From positions 1-64,000 of the forward strand of contig JACRBM010000060.1 of NCBI GenBank assembly GCA_016219275.1: 64,000 nt of DNA, in the 5' to 3' direction. Below the pieces are notes generated by a model, which had not been told where the DNA came from, ran no database searches, and saw nothing but the letters and a program-made list of their open reading frames with translations. The translations under genes and the position numbers were made by a program. Origin of the DNA: Chloroflexota bacterium. Lineage in GTDB: Bacteria > Chloroflexota > Anaerolineae > UBA4142. Positions 57,372 to 63,046 of the stretch are shown here, in pieces (positions within the stretch are counted from its first letter, which is position 1; each line of letters begins with the position of its first letter).

Positions 57372-58262
57372 CTATTTCGTATGAGGGTTGGCGTCGTGCG
57401 GTTCCGCAAGCAATCCCAACGCGATTTGCCGTGCGACTTGATTTTGCCACGCGGGTTTTTGAATCAAAGTCACCGCGCGCGCGCTGAACCATCCAGCCGT
57501 CAGTCCAATCGAAACGATGAAACCAGCACTCGTGAACGCGCCCGTCGGCGTAAGCAATGCCAACGGCAATCCGAAAAACAAACCGGCGGAGGCGACCAGC
57601 GCAATCACTACACTCACGTCGAAGATACCGCGCAGGAGAACCGTTTCAAACGCCACGCGATAGAATCGCCGCGCAATCCCGTAGGCAATGACGACCGAAA
57701 TCGCGATGACGACAAGCGGCGCGTGCAGGATGCCTGCCTCGAAGAGACCCGCGTGCGCGCCCGCGCTCACGAGACTGAGCAGAGCCAACGCGATCATCGC
57801 GAGGGCGCGCAGAACGAACGGGCGCGTCGCGTTTTGCGCGGGTTGATCAATCACGCGCATGCCCAGTGCGGCGATTTCGTTTGCGAAATTGGTGTGATTC
57901 ACATATTCGTTGAGCACGTCTAACGTGATCTGTTGCGCGTTCAAGTCAACCGACACGTGCGCCACGCCATCCATTCGCGCCAAAACTTTTTCCATGGTGC
58001 GCGTCGAACTCGCGTAGATCAAGTCCGCCACGTTCAGTACGATCCGTTGGCGCGGCACATCAAATCCTTCGCCTTGCGCCACACCCACCATCGCGATTGC
58101 CGATACGCGCGCGGGATCGAAGGTGACGGTCGCGCGTTCGGTCGCATAGTTCACGCGCGCGGCGATGACCCCATCGAGCCGCGTCAACGCGCGCTCGAGC
58201 GTGACCGCACAATTCGCGCTAAACATTCCTTCTATGGCAAATGAGATTTGGCGTGTGTTCAT
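57372..58262 (-). CDS. Truncated Cu-ATPase-like membrane protein with two degenerate HMA domains
   Basis: A 296-residue protein. Residues 3-68 form an HMA-type domain whose metal motif GMxCxxC is reduced to GMFSANC; residues 70-135 form a second HMA-like domain with no Cys. About five helices follow (residues 150-280), resembling the first helices of a P1B-ATPase. The phosphorylation motif DKTGT, the actuator TGE and the nucleotide-binding domain are all missing, and the next gene begins directly after the stop codon. It could be a remnant or a stand-alone metal-responsive membrane protein. The ATG at 58262 is chosen because the HMA domain starts at once. Confidence 0.75.
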   Translation of the reverse strand: MNTRQISFAIEGMFSANCAVTLERALTRLDGVIAARVNYATERATVTFDPARVSAIAMVGVAQGEGFDVPRQRIVLNVADLIYASSTRTMEKVLARMDGVAHVSVDLNAQQITLDVLNEYVNHTNFANEIAALGMRVIDQPAQNATRPFVLRALAMIALALLSLVSAGAHAGLFEAGILHAPLVVIAISVVIAYGIARRFYRVAFETVLLRGIFDVSVVIALVASAGLFFGLPLALLTPTGAFTSAGFIVSIGLTAGWFSARAVTLIQKPAWQNQVARQIALGLLAEPHDANPHTK

Positions 58263-58335
58263 CTTGGCAAATCTTTCGCTGAGAGTGTACCTCGGATCGT
58301 CAGTGGTGGTGAGCGCAATCTGTCCTGTTTCGCGG

Positions 58336-58351
58336 CAAGCCATTTGGCGTA
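58336..58351. promoter_or_regulatory. Copper-cluster palindrome, copy B
   Basis: CAAGCCATTTGGCGTA, with two differences from the consensus in the left half and a perfect right half. It lies 75-90 bases upstream of the truncated Cu-ATPase-like gene. Confidence 0.6.
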
Positions 58352-58424: not shown

Positions 58425-59015
58425 TTATTCGGCGAGCGCGGAGCCAGACGCGCGTTTGGGTGGACTGGCGATAAACCCAGGTTTCCACGGTGTGCCGAGC
58501 GCCGGCAACAGATAGCGGTCAAGCCCCCAGTACCCGGCAGTCTTCCACGCGAAGATCAACAAGATCGAGAGCGTGAAGAAAACCGGATTGACGCTCGTCG
58601 TGCCTGCCATCATAAAATTCCAGTTCATAAACCCGCCGAAGAATGCGGCGATGCCGGTGAACGCGCCAACCAATAGCGCGATGCCGATGAGCAATTCGCC
58701 GAACACGACGAGTTTAGCAAACCACACGTACGCTTGCGTATCCACCAAGAATTGAATGAATACGCGGTACCAATCGAACGTAATCACGGGTTTGGGATCT
58801 AGCTTGAGCGCGTTGACCCAATAGCCCTTGAGCGCATCGCCCGTATTCAGCCATGCAGGATTGTTGAACTTGCCCCACCCCGACGTGATCCAAGTGTACG
58901 ACATGTACAGCCGTACGATCAACCAGATCCACGCAAAACGCGTGTCCGAGAAAATGAACCGCGTGATGGGTGGGTCAGTCATCTCTCCGTTTCGATATGC
59001 AGCGAGTCGTGCCAT
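58425..59015 (-). CDS. DoxX-family membrane protein
   Basis: A 196-residue membrane protein with four helices; RLYMSYTWITSGWGKFNNPAWLNTGDALKGYW and FAKLVVFGELLIGIALLVGAFTGIAAFFGGFMNWNFMMAG match the DoxX/DoxD group, which includes the quinone-reducing subunit of thiosulfate:quinone oxidoreductase. It may pass electrons between sulfur or thiol compounds and the quinone pool. AAGGAG lies before the ATG. Confidence 0.85.
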   Translation of the reverse strand: MARLAAYRNGEMTDPPITRFIFSDTRFAWIWLIVRLYMSYTWITSGWGKFNNPAWLNTGDALKGYWVNALKLDPKPVITFDWYRVFIQFLVDTQAYVWFAKLVVFGELLIGIALLVGAFTGIAAFFGGFMNWNFMMAGTTSVNPVFFTLSILLIFAWKTAGYWGLDRYLLPALGTPWKPGFIASPPKRASGSALAE

Positions 59016-59166: not shown

Positions 59167-59685
59167 TCAACGCGGCACCCAGTTCGACGCGATGAGGAGT
59201 TTCTTGAGTGGTTGTGTCGAGTCGTTGGTCTTCAACGGAATCTCGAACAAGTGCTTGCCGCCCATGCCTTCATGCATCACAATCTCGGTCGAAATCGTGG
59301 TGGACTGACCTGGTTGGAGTGTCGTCTGACCGACGACGATTTGGGAAGGTCAGCATCCCTCCAACGCAGTGACCAGTCGCGGCATATCGAGTTTCAGCGC
59401 GCCGTCGCCAACATTTTTGACGGTGAAGGTCGCGCGCACGGGTTGATCGAAAATCCGATTGCCCAGGTCAACCTGCTCGCGATCCACTTCCAAGCGCGCG
59501 CCGACTGCGCCGGGCGTCGCTTGGTTCGCCGCCAGGAAAACCACGATGCCGACGAACAGCACGACGGCGGCGGCAATCACAAAGGGCAAGACGCGCGTGA
59601 TGGTATCGCGGCGTTCAGTTTGCTTGCGCGCGCGGGCGCGTTCGGATACGCGCGCGTGCGTTTTGCGAATGGGTTGGTCTGACAT
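59167..59685 (-). CDS. DUF1573-like membrane-anchored selenoprotein (internal UGA read as Sec)
   Basis: A 172-residue protein if the UGA at 59352-59350 is read as selenocysteine. A basic N-terminus and one helix (about residues 31-53) precede an immunoglobulin-like domain: VDREQVDLGNRIFDQPVRATFTVKNVGDGALKLDMP. The chain reads ALEGC-Sec-PSQIVVGQTTLQPGQSTT and continues in frame for 60 codons to WVPR and a TGA at 59169-59167. The part after the UGA is what a DUF1573-type domain needs to be complete. A hairpin with a GGU loop starts 12 bases after the UGA. Vicinal Cys-Sec could form a redox-active selenenylsulfide on the outer membrane face. It follows the CuA-cytochrome c gene after 12 bases. 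Confidence 0.85.
59321..59337 (-). promoter_or_regulatory. Bacterial SECIS element
   Basis: Minus strand: GTCGTC-GGTCA-GACGAC, six perfect pairs. The loop begins with GGU, and exactly 18 bases separate the UGA from GGU, the same distance as in E. coli fdhF. It lies in the coding region just after the UGA, as bacterial SECIS elements do. Confidence 0.8.
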
Positions 59686-59697
59686 TTGTCTCCTTGT

Positions 59698-60675
59698 TTA
59701 TGGGTAATCAAACACAAACGATCTCAAGAAACTAATCACGTTCCACATTTCTTCATCCGTGTAAAGCGATCGCCACTCGGGCATGCCCGTGCCCATCCCC
59801 CCGCGCAGTAGTTTGCCCTGCAAAAGCACATCGCTTGCGCCGAGCATCTGCGCCGCATCCGTGAAATCGGCGGGACCTTTTCTCATCGTCGCGTCCATCG
59901 CGCGCATCCCCGGCAAATTGCGTCCGGCAGGTCCATCGCCTTGACCGGATTCACCGTGACACGCGGCGCAATCGCGCGCGTATAATTTTTGCCCGCGCGC
60001 AAGCGCCGTGTCGCCGGCGGTGCGTTTCCATGCCAACGCCGTCGCGTCCCAGAGTTGCAAATCCGTGTACGATCTCAACATTGCATCGGCGCGCAATTTC
60101 GTAAACACATCACTCGGCGATTTCATCCGCAGGTCATCGGCGATGGCGATGCCGAGCAACGCGCCGCGCGCGGCGGAGGGTTTTTGCGTTGGCGTGTTTT
60201 GCGTCGGGTGCATCGCATCAATGTCAACTTTCAATTGCTGATAGAGCGGCGGCGCAAAGGTCGGCAAAGGCGGATTCGGATTCGCCGGATCAACTACCAG
60301 AATCGTTCCGCGCATTCGCCAGTGATCTACGCTGCACCAACGCGTGCACGCAAATGGAAAGCGTCCCGCGCGCGTCGCGGTGAACTCGATTTCCTCGACG
60401 TGTCCCGGCAAAATTTCATCCACGCGAATTCCCAGCGTGGGAACTTCAAACCCATGCGCAACATCAGGCGACGAAATTCGCAAACGCACGCGCTCGCCCA
60501 CGTTCACGCGAATTGTATCGGGAACCCAGCCGCCGGTCGCCGGCGCGTTCGCGGTGAGCGCGATGACGCGCGTATCGCCCGCGTTCGTCCGCCATGCCTG
60601 GTATCCCCAAAGCGACGCGGGAAACGCGACGAAGATGAGGAATACAACTGTAAGTGCGAAAAGTTCTTTTCTCAT
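59698..60675 (-). CDS. CuA-domain and cytochrome c fusion protein
   Basis: A 325-residue protein: one N-terminal helix, a cupredoxin domain with a complete CuA site (His74, then CTRWCSVDHWRM giving Cys110, Cys114, His118, Met121), a linker of about 80 residues, and a class I cytochrome c (CAACH at 235-239; axial Met probably in GMGTGMPEW). It looks like a cytochrome oxidase subunit II/cytochrome c fusion, yet the linker is long and no subunit I gene is nearby. It could pass electrons to an oxidase or N2O reductase encoded elsewhere. Confidence 0.9.
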   Translation of the reverse strand: MRKELFALTVVFLIFVAFPASLWGYQAWRTNAGDTRVIALTANAPATGGWVPDTIRVNVGERVRLRISSPDVAHGFEVPTLGIRVDEILPGHVEEIEFTATRAGRFPFACTRWCSVDHWRMRGTILVVDPANPNPPLPTFAPPLYQQLKVDIDAMHPTQNTPTQKPSAARGALLGIAIADDLRMKSPSDVFTKLRADAMLRSYTDLQLWDATALAWKRTAGDTALARGQKLYARDCAACHGESGQGDGPAGRNLPGMRAMDATMRKGPADFTDAAQMLGASDVLLQGKLLRGGMGTGMPEWRSLYTDEEMWNVISFLRSFVFDYP

Positions 60676-60736
60676 TTTAGATTTCAGATTTCAGATTGCA
60701 GATTGAAAACCAAAATCTGCAATTAGAAATCAGAAA
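60676..60736. repeat. Inverted repeat of ATTTCAGATTTC units
   Basis: TTTAGATTTCAGATTTCAGA on the left and CTGCAATTAGAAATCAGAAA on the right. The right end, read on the minus strand, supplies the TGA stop codon of the NosR/NapH-like gene. Confidence 0.65.
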
Positions 60737-62094
60737 TTTAATCCCACCATCACCAGCGTGAACGCGACGCAAAACGCGACAATCGGCAACGCGGCTTGCG
60801 ATGATCCGCGTTGTTCGCCCGTGGTGCGAAACGCAATCGCAATCGCGGCGACCAAGCCGATCAGCAAAATCGGAATCTGCATGTACGCTTGCCAGCCCGC
60901 GAGGTACGGCGTCCATTGCCAATTCGCGGTGCCAAATAAATTCCAGCCCCAGCCGAATGGATCGGAGATCACTTGCCACGCGTACGAAATGTTGACGAGG
61001 ACGAACGACAAACTGAACGACGCCCACGCCCCAAGTCCAAGCGGGAGCAGCGCGGTCGCGTACTCGACGAAGAATTGGCGCGATGATGCTTTCGTACGCG
61101 CGATGAATTTCGACAACGCAACGCACGCGAAGAAAATTCCTGGGACGACGACGAGCGTCAGCGCAAGCAATCCCAGCGCGTACAGCCACCAGCCCGGCGA
61201 AGCGATCGCGTACGCGGCTTCTTTGATCTCCGCCCAGGGTCCCAAAAACACAATCGTGTAGAGCGGCGCGCCCGCGAGCATCATCAAACTGCGATACGCT
61301 TCGTCGAGACGGCGACCTTTGTTCGTCAGCAAATCCTTGCCGAACGGGCGCACGGACAACGCGATGTTATCGAGCGTGCAGGTTTTCAAGCATTCGGTGC
61401 ACAGTCCGCAATTCGTATTCTTGTCGAGCGTCGCGGGAAAGATGAGCCAGGGACAGCCGTACCCTTTTTCACTGCCGATGTAACACGCCTTGTCGTGGTG
61501 CGTCGCGCAAAGTGCGTGATCCTTGACGCGTACTTCGATGGGCGCGACCTGGGAATACAAACCGATGAATCCGCCGACGGGACAAATGTAGCGGCAGAAC
61601 GTTCGCCGCTCGAACAGCAAACTTGTCGCGATGGCGATCCCGGCAAAGATCAACACCGTCACCGCGCTGACGAACGGCGTCGTCAGAATCACTTTAGCAA
61701 AGAGCGCGACGATGAGGAACGCGGCGCTTTGCAACCAGATGTTGTTGAGTTGGCGGGGCCATTTCAATCCGAGGGTGAACAGTTTGCCGCGTTCGTGTAC
61801 CTGCACGAGCGAACGGCGTTGCAACCATTCGCCGGGCGCGGGAATCGGACACACCGCGCACCAAAAACGTCCGGCGAAAGGGACCATCACGAGCATCAAC
61901 AGTCCCCACCACACGATCCACACAAAGACGATGCCAAAGTTGCGATTGCCTGCCGGCGTGCCAAACAATCCGGTCAAAATCGCCAGCACAAAGAACGGCA
62001 AGGTCCCGGCAACGAGCGACCATTGCAACCAACGGCTCGCGAGAATTTTTTTGATGATAGGAATGCGGGTAAGGTCGAGACGAGTATCTGTCAT
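60730..62094 (-). CDS. NosR/NapH-like polyferredoxin membrane protein
   Basis: A 454-residue membrane protein. Helices surround the cysteine motifs FWCAVCPIPAPGEW and RTFCRYICPVGGF, typical of the NosR/NapH/CcoG-type family. Further Cys motifs, CATHHDKACYIGSEKGYGC and CGLCTECLKTC, bind iron-sulfur clusters at the cytoplasmic side. Four or five more helices follow. NosR and NapH feed electrons from quinol to periplasmic reductases. The ATG at 62094 gives the natural N-terminus. Confidence 0.87.
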   Translation of the reverse strand: MTDTRLDLTRIPIIKKILASRWLQWSLVAGTLPFFVLAILTGLFGTPAGNRNFGIVFVWIVWWGLLMLVMVPFAGRFWCAVCPIPAPGEWLQRRSLVQVHERGKLFTLGLKWPRQLNNIWLQSAAFLIVALFAKVILTTPFVSAVTVLIFAGIAIATSLLFERRTFCRYICPVGGFIGLYSQVAPIEVRVKDHALCATHHDKACYIGSEKGYGCPWLIFPATLDKNTNCGLCTECLKTCTLDNIALSVRPFGKDLLTNKGRRLDEAYRSLMMLAGAPLYTIVFLGPWAEIKEAAYAIASPGWWLYALGLLALTLVVVPGIFFACVALSKFIARTKASSRQFFVEYATALLPLGLGAWASFSLSFVLVNISYAWQVISDPFGWGWNLFGTANWQWTPYLAGWQAYMQIPILLIGLVAAIAIAFRTTGEQRGSSQAALPIVAFCVAFTLVMVGLNF

Positions 62095-62156
62095 GGTCTT
62101 TGTCGGACTGTGTAGTATGTGTTGCGTAAGACGGAACATGCAATACGCAACACGCG

Positions 62157-62618
62157 CTATGTCCTGTTCCAGAAATAGATCACCGCGCCGATGGCTGTGA
62201 TCAACGTAGCGATGATTGCGCGCGCGAACGGATAATTTGGCGTGACATCCAATTCGCCGATCATAAACGGATGCAACGTGCCGCACGCAATCGAACAACG
62301 AAATTTGAACTTGCCTTCCTTATCCGCGACAAACGTCACGTCCGCGCTCTTCCCAGGTTCGGCTTGAATGTTCACGGCATAGCCGTCAACCGCCAAGCCG
62401 TGCGCCGCGTCGAGCGATTCGAGATGCACCGTGATCGTATCGCCGCGCTGGACGTTGAGCGTCGCGGGTTCGTACGCGAATTGGCGCGCGCTGATTTCGA
62501 TTCGGCGCGCTTGGGGCGCAGACGCAACGGCAGGGAGCGGCGCGACGAACGCCGCCAGCGTCAGCACCGCCGACACCGCGACAATTGCAAATCGCAATTG
62601 GCGATTCGGTCGGCTCAT
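62157..62618 (-). CDS. CuA-type cupredoxin protein with C-terminal helix
   Basis: A 153-residue protein with a signal peptide, a cupredoxin domain holding a full CuA set (His73, CSIACGTLHPFM giving Cys108, Cys112, His116, Met119) and a C-terminal helix (FARAIIATLITAIGAVIYFW). This reversed anchoring, compared with the CuA-cytochrome c protein, suggests a different partner. It overlaps the PCYCGC gene as ATGA. Confidence 0.88.
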   Translation of the reverse strand: MSRPNRQLRFAIVAVSAVLTLAAFVAPLPAVASAPQARRIEISARQFAYEPATLNVQRGDTITVHLESLDAAHGLAVDGYAVNIQAEPGKSADVTFVADKEGKFKFRCSIACGTLHPFMIGELDVTPNYPFARAIIATLITAIGAVIYFWNRT

Positions 62619-63046
62619 TGATTCGGCGGTCCAAACTGGCTGTACGTCGCCATGATTGCCGCGCGAATGTCCGGCGGCGATTTCCCATCGCGCGTCAGTT
62701 TCATTACATCCTGCGCGATGTCCACGCAAACGCTACACCCCAGCGCATGATCATCAAACACCGGCATGCCATCGGCTTTGATTTCTTTCACGTAACACGA
62801 GTAATCGCTCGTGTGTCCAATCGCGCCGCAACCACAATAGCAGGGCACATTCTTGAGCGCGTCGGGATTCGCTACGGCAAATTGGTACGCTTCGCGCACA
62901 CGCGTCGGCGCATTGTGAATATGCGCGGGCAAGCTACTCGCGGGCGCTAATTTCAATTCTTGCGCTGGAGTTGCCGCACACGCCGTCGTCAAGAGTAAAG
63001 GCGTAAGCATCACAATGAGCAAGACGAAAGATAGAATTCGATTCAC
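62615..63046 (-). CDS. PCYCGC-motif lipoprotein
   Basis: A 143-residue lipoprotein with a lipobox TTAC and the signature NVPCYCGCGAIGHTSDYSCYVKE, then ALGCSVCVDIAQDVM. The many cysteines (CYCGCG, C, CSVC) are suited to binding copper or a cluster, and the family occurs with copper or terminal-reductase genes. It leads the operon PCYCGC, CuA, NosR-like, CuA-cytochrome c, selenoprotein, behind the perfect palindrome at 63.13 kb. Confidence 0.87.
   Translation of the reverse strand: MNRILSFVLLIVMLTPLLLTTACAATPAQELKLAPASSLPAHIHNAPTRVREAYQFAVANPDALKNVPCYCGCGAIGHTSDYSCYVKEIKADGMPVFDDHALGCSVCVDIAQDVMKLTRDGKSPPDIRAAIMATYSQFGPPNQ

Follow-up and report, generated by a model that had tools for sequence, protein, structure and literature searches.

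The window, by which we mean the whole stretch of 64,000 nucleotides of Chloroflexota DNA analysed here, carries on its minus strand a gene whose frame opens with an ATG at 59685, meets a UGA at 59352-59350 (codon 112, directly preceded by Cys111), continues for 60 more codons and closes with a second UGA at 59169-59167. The initial annotation, which had taken this gene for an undeclared selenoprotein with a Cys-Sec pair, correctly described the UGA after a Cys codon and the 60 codons downstream of it; it had left out the strand, which is minus. Its expectation that gene callers would cut the protein to 111 residues is met by the mechanical ORF list, in which the product ends at UGA 112. Read through this codon, the gene is predicted, in the absence of protein data, to encode 172 residues that comprise a membrane anchor, a single PapD/HYDIN-like Ig domain on the extracytoplasmic side and, at the UGA, a Gly-Cys-Sec-Pro site. 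The coordinates of the gene, its parts and its neighbours are listed in Table 1.

Table 1. Features of the putative selenoprotein gene and of the genes around it (positions in the window).
Feature	Position	Strand	Description and basis
Putative selenoprotein gene	59167..59685	minus	172 aa with UGA codon 112 read as Sec; supported by homologues
In-frame UGA (putative Sec112)	59350..59352	minus	motif G110-C111-U112-P113; UGA in homologues except one Cys paralogue
Putative bacterial SECIS hairpin	59321..59337	minus	stem GUCGUC/GACGAC, loop GGUCA, 6 bp, 18 nt after UGA
N-terminal membrane anchor, ~residues 33-53	59527..59589	minus	sequence and AlphaFold2 helix 10-53; exact limits inferred
PapD/HYDIN-like Ig domain, ~residues 65-171	59173..59493	minus	PF22544, AlphaFold2, 2qsv match
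Conserved loop M137-H-E-G-M141-G-G-K-H145	59251..59277	minus	alignment conservation; metal-ligand role inferred
Upstream neighbour: CuA-type COX2 domain (C-x3-C-x3-H-x2-M) fused to cytochrome c (CAACH)	59698..60675	minus	motifs, synteny
Polytopic Fer4_5 (NapH-like) protein	60730..62298	minus	listed start TTG; true start probably near 62080
Second CuA-type cupredoxin (C-SIA-C-GTL-H-PF-M)	62157..62729	minus	listed start overlaps next gene; true start probably near 62618
PCYCGC lipoprotein-like partner, all Cys	62615..63046	minus	PF13798, 102 bits
DoxX family protein, downstream neighbour	58425..59015	minus	present in some relatives

Gene neighbourhood

The CuA motif is present in both COX2-like proteins next to the gene, and a haem c motif in one of them. 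In most Anaerolineae examined, the genes for the PCYCGC protein, the cupredoxin, the Fer4_5 protein, the COX2-cytochrome c fusion and the Sec protein follow each other in this order, and in distant classes the PCYCGC and Fer4_5 genes adjoin the Sec gene. In some relatives (L099 and L105, for instance) none of the copper neighbours lies within the DNA fetched. An in-frame UGA was sought in the PCYCGC neighbour of the window and none was found; the relatives of this protein that were seen have Cys throughout. Genes for an HMA protein, a MerT-like and a DUF2933-like protein follow in the window cluster and are not constant neighbours. In other Chloroflexota classes, ccmE and ccmF lie near the Sec gene at two loci (L102 and L103), and ccmH at one of these (L103).

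Reading of UGA 112

A homologue search retrieved the protein from 22 of 400 Chloroflexota genomes, each time with a UGA at the same Cys-UGA-Pro codon, whereas in four more genomes only weak matches lacking the UGA turned up, and those that were read are ordinary CGC-type DUF1573 proteins. The UGA homologues span many Chloroflexota families, all have the C-U-P motif, and in a sample of 199 genomes from the class of the source genome the protein is present in 34, in its UGA form in every case. The initial annotation had conceded that its reading would fall if homologues truly ended at this position. They continue instead into a conserved domain, nearly all of them with the UGA, and downstream of the UGA close pairs show a dN/dS of about 0.1, the mark of purifying selection on this stretch. 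That nearly all members use Sec suggests that it is needed and not optional. A protein search of plasmids returned no match, and no relative turned up on viral contigs. Frameshifted copies of the Sec gene were seen twice (L051, 3072-3532; L046, G112:C1:4125077-4125534), reflecting either real decay or assembly error.

The hairpin downstream of the UGA was described accurately in the initial annotation as to stem, loop and spacing, and it satisfies all four published criteria of the bSECIS model (loop of 3-9 nt, stem of 4-16 bp, a G in the first two loop positions, 16-37 nt from the UGA, MFE <= -7.5; PMC13188914), with a loop of 5 nt (GGUCA) starting 18 nt past the UGA, a stem of 6 bp and an MFE of -9.7 kcal/mol. 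It is the only one to follow any of the 1986 TGA triplets on both strands of the window when a perfect 6-bp stem and a 5-nt GU-type loop at exactly 18 nt are demanded; six triplets pass under relaxed limits. The weight that had been given to it was nevertheless too great, as all six pairs also form in 19% of synonymous recodings of the window peptide and dinucleotide shuffling puts the z-score at just -1.7. A scan of the window with Rfam gave nothing at gathering thresholds. Taken alone, the window hairpin is weak evidence for Sec and becomes decisive only through comparison, so that the case had to be decided on the homologues.

In an alignment of 31 sequences, 97.3% of the hairpin cells are paired, both partners have changed in five of the six pairs, and the covariation score is reached by none of 500 shuffles and destroyed by sliding the partners. 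Extended to 68 distinct UGA forms, the comparison finds the five inner pairs kept, with compensatory changes, in all 68, where synonymous recoding reaches 14 on average and never more than 22. The spacing is 18 nt in 66 of them and 21 nt in the other two, after insertion of one codon. The peptide after Sec (VVGQTT, TIGSMV, VVGPTT, AVSSTV) varies together with the hairpin (alignment A2, columns 16-32; window 59321-59337), and the RNA thus seems to shape the protein sequence.

The Cys-Cys-Pro variant by which the initial annotation would have had the Cys-Sec-Pro site checked occurs in one genome (G507), as a tandem paralogue, KGCCPQQPTVGQ, in which TGT (Cys) replaces the UGA (KGCCPQ) and only two of the six hairpin pairs are retained. 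The Sec and Cys copies stand side by side on contig C380 of this genome (L150 / L149), the TGT copy being without the SECIS hairpin, and this pair makes a clean natural control.

The same annotation had tied its reading to selA, selB, selC and selD, all of which were found in the source genome (6.16 Mb, 97.9% complete): a tRNA-Sec with UCA anticodon (70.6 bits), SelB (335 bits), SelA (585 bits) and SelD (366 bits). The SelD is itself a selenoprotein, with an in-frame UGA at the known Sec site CAGUASK (L113, G000:C52:100040-100975). Among the 22 UGA-bearing Chloroflexota genomes SelB is found in 19, including 14/14 of high quality; three (82-89% complete) gave no SelB match and two (G029 and G270) no SelA match. 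Co-occurrence with SelA was rejected as a statistical test, because SelA is present in 331 of the 400 genomes anyway; it is required without being discriminating and proves little by itself.

The proposal of a selenoprotein is thus supported by the Sec machinery, the homologues, the covariation of the hairpin and the Cys paralogue, and each check proposed in the initial annotation that lent itself to sequence analysis gave a positive result. The comparison of 68 sequences, the lost hairpin of the paralogue and the bSECIS criteria settle the Sec reading as far as sequence can, and although neither protein nor RNA data are at hand, we are highly confident that the UGA at 59350-59352 encodes selenocysteine. 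It would be decoded by the SelB and tRNA-Sec of this genome, with the downstream hairpin as SECIS element. The conserved downstream frame alone would equally permit UGA 112 to be recoded or read through as another residue, such as Trp, under a changed code or at a leaky stop; this we hold to be very improbable, given that the same gene terminates with UGA, that no sense codon other than TGT (Cys) was seen at this position in the homologues, that the SECIS-like hairpin covaries and that the Sec machinery is complete. Even less can be said for a sequencing error or a real stop followed by decayed sequence or a separate fragment. Gene callers do end the ORF at UGA 112, and the hairpin of the window by itself is only moderately unusual, but 68 distinct sequences share the UGA at this codon, the stretch downstream is under purifying selection, and the hairpin covaries and is lost in the Cys paralogue; short of protein data, the comparison has already refuted this reading.

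Fold, family and relatives

AlphaFold2, run with a 28-member alignment, returned a model (pLDDT 88) consisting of an N-terminal helix (residues 10-53) and one Ig-like domain, with pLDDT above 90 across most of the latter. The best structural match is 2qsv (Z 13.3, rmsd 1.9, 102 aligned residues), followed by other PapD/ASH-like domains; these Foldseek and VIA-align matches to Ig domains were not taken as functional evidence. At sequence level the single protein had no match in the PDB, and the alignment profile matched nothing besides 2qsv and ciliary Ig domains of the HYDIN-like type. PF22544 (HYDIN/VesB/CFA65-like Ig) scores 30.6 bits, above its gathering cut-off of 25.5, while PF07610 (DUF1573) stays at 21.9 bits, under its cut-off of 26.1; the label DUF1573-like therefore holds in the sense of a distant relationship and not as membership of that Pfam family. 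Within the domain an M-H-x-G-M-x-G-x-H motif (137-145) is strongly conserved among homologues, and from the strand order, without distances having been measured, we infer that this Met/His loop and Cys-Sec share one end of the domain.

Ordinary DUF1573 and HYDIN/VesB-like Ig proteins (PF07610, PF22544; 2qsv) share the fold of the window protein. The ordinary bacterial DUF1573-like members seen have a CGC motif and no UGA, one distant WS1 relative having CC, and the MHxGMxGxH loop is absent from the ordinary DUF1573 proteins examined.

A DUF1573 selenoprotein, OS_HP2, was reportedly first described from a symbiont of Olavius algarvensis in a 2007 paper. The window protein has in common with it (NF041425; PF07610) the broad DUF1573-like domain class and a Sec in a short Cys-rich motif, but differs in that motif, which in OS_HP2 is U-G-C (PMC13188914) or UxC (PMC2398784) and here C-U-P. 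Against NF041425 the window protein scores 21.0 bits and does not reach the NCBIfam cut-off of 100, and a search of the 400 Chloroflexota genomes with the OS_HP2 profile gave nothing above cut-off, the matches being mostly ordinary CGC-type proteins together with one UGA member.

An inventory of prokaryotic selenoproteins from 2026 distinguishes 119 families and subfamilies and treats different Sec positions as separate subfamilies; a DUF1573 protein with a CU motif is not among them (PMC13188914). A literature search found no paper naming a DUF1573-like CU-P selenoprotein, the 2007 Olavius paper and unpublished annotations lying outside that search. From its motif and its absence from the inventory, the C-U-P protein appears to represent a new selenoprotein subfamily, distantly related to the DUF1573 selenoprotein and found across Chloroflexota. 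About one sixth of the class genomes sampled carry it, and its members can be expected to be truncated by gene callers.

Two families with Sec members elsewhere have representatives next to the Sec gene, namely CYCXC/PCYCGC (PF13798, NF041379) and UxxU (NF041115), although both representatives remain under the NCBIfam cut-offs, the PCYCGC neighbour being all-Cys and the UxxU-like neighbour having S-x-x-C. The latter is the HMA protein (window 57372-58343, minus strand), which scores 73.6 bits against the UxxU metal-binding (seleno)protein family (cut-off 95), has its S-x-x-C at the metal site and continues with sequence that looks membrane-spanning.

Possible function

The CuA, Fer4_5, PCYCGC and Ccm neighbours suggest a role in the maturation of copper sites or of cytochrome c. 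Resting on the neighbourhood and on a reading of the motif only, our proposal that the Sec protein helps to assemble or maintain CuA and cytochrome c centres outside the membrane is a tentative one, for which we would not claim even odds. A redox or copper-transfer role of the Cys-Sec pair within a copper/redox cluster had already been put forward in the initial annotation; it is still inferred, and it remains plausible, now with CuA-motif, Fer4_5 and PCYCGC neighbours beside it.

Sco, PCuAC and CcoG are assembly factors of copper sites. The likeness that we see to them concerns the proposed working only, that is, extracytoplasmic delivery or reduction of Cu(I) for CuA, Met/His and Cys ligands and an Fe-S membrane partner, and no relation in sequence or fold is claimed. 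In this scheme the Cys-Sec pair, which probably lies close to the Met-His-x-Gly-Met-x-Gly-x-His loop, would have one or both of two tasks: to bind Cu(I), and to reduce, by its thiol/selenol chemistry, the Cys ligands of both neighbouring CuA-motif proteins. Electrons would come from the Fer4_5 membrane protein, and the PCYCGC protein would be a partner carrier. An Ig-fold, Sec-dependent CuA/cytochrome c assembly factor, in which Cys-Sec and the Met/His loop bind or reduce extracytoplasmic copper, is a possibility short of probable, the binding itself being inferred. If true, it would give Sec a role outside the thioredoxin fold and link selenium to copper in Chloroflexota respiration. The neighbourhood makes it possible to test directly whether selenium has a part in maturing copper sites or cytochromes.

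The protein could, with no better than a fair-sized chance, be a general thiol/selenol oxidoreductase instead, reducing extracytoplasmic disulfides or peroxides or the Cys residues of apocytochrome c, and not a copper-site factor. A redox function is assumed for most selenoproteins (PMC13188914), the adjacent Cys and Sec might form a strained selenenyl-sulfide, and the CcmE, CcmF and CcmH genes mentioned above would fit such a role; the fold, however, is Ig/PapD-like and not thioredoxin-like, and the conserved Met/His loop and the two CuA-motif neighbours favour copper. The copper-site reading also has to be set against a selenoprotein for the extracytoplasmic handling of toxic metals (mercury, silver or copper in excess), which we regard as unlikely. 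It could draw on the HMA, MerT-like and DUF2933-like genes of the window cluster and on the resemblance of the HMA protein to the UxxU family, but the genes that constantly accompany the Sec gene are those for the PCYCGC and Fer4_5 proteins and, within Anaerolineae, for the CuA proteins.
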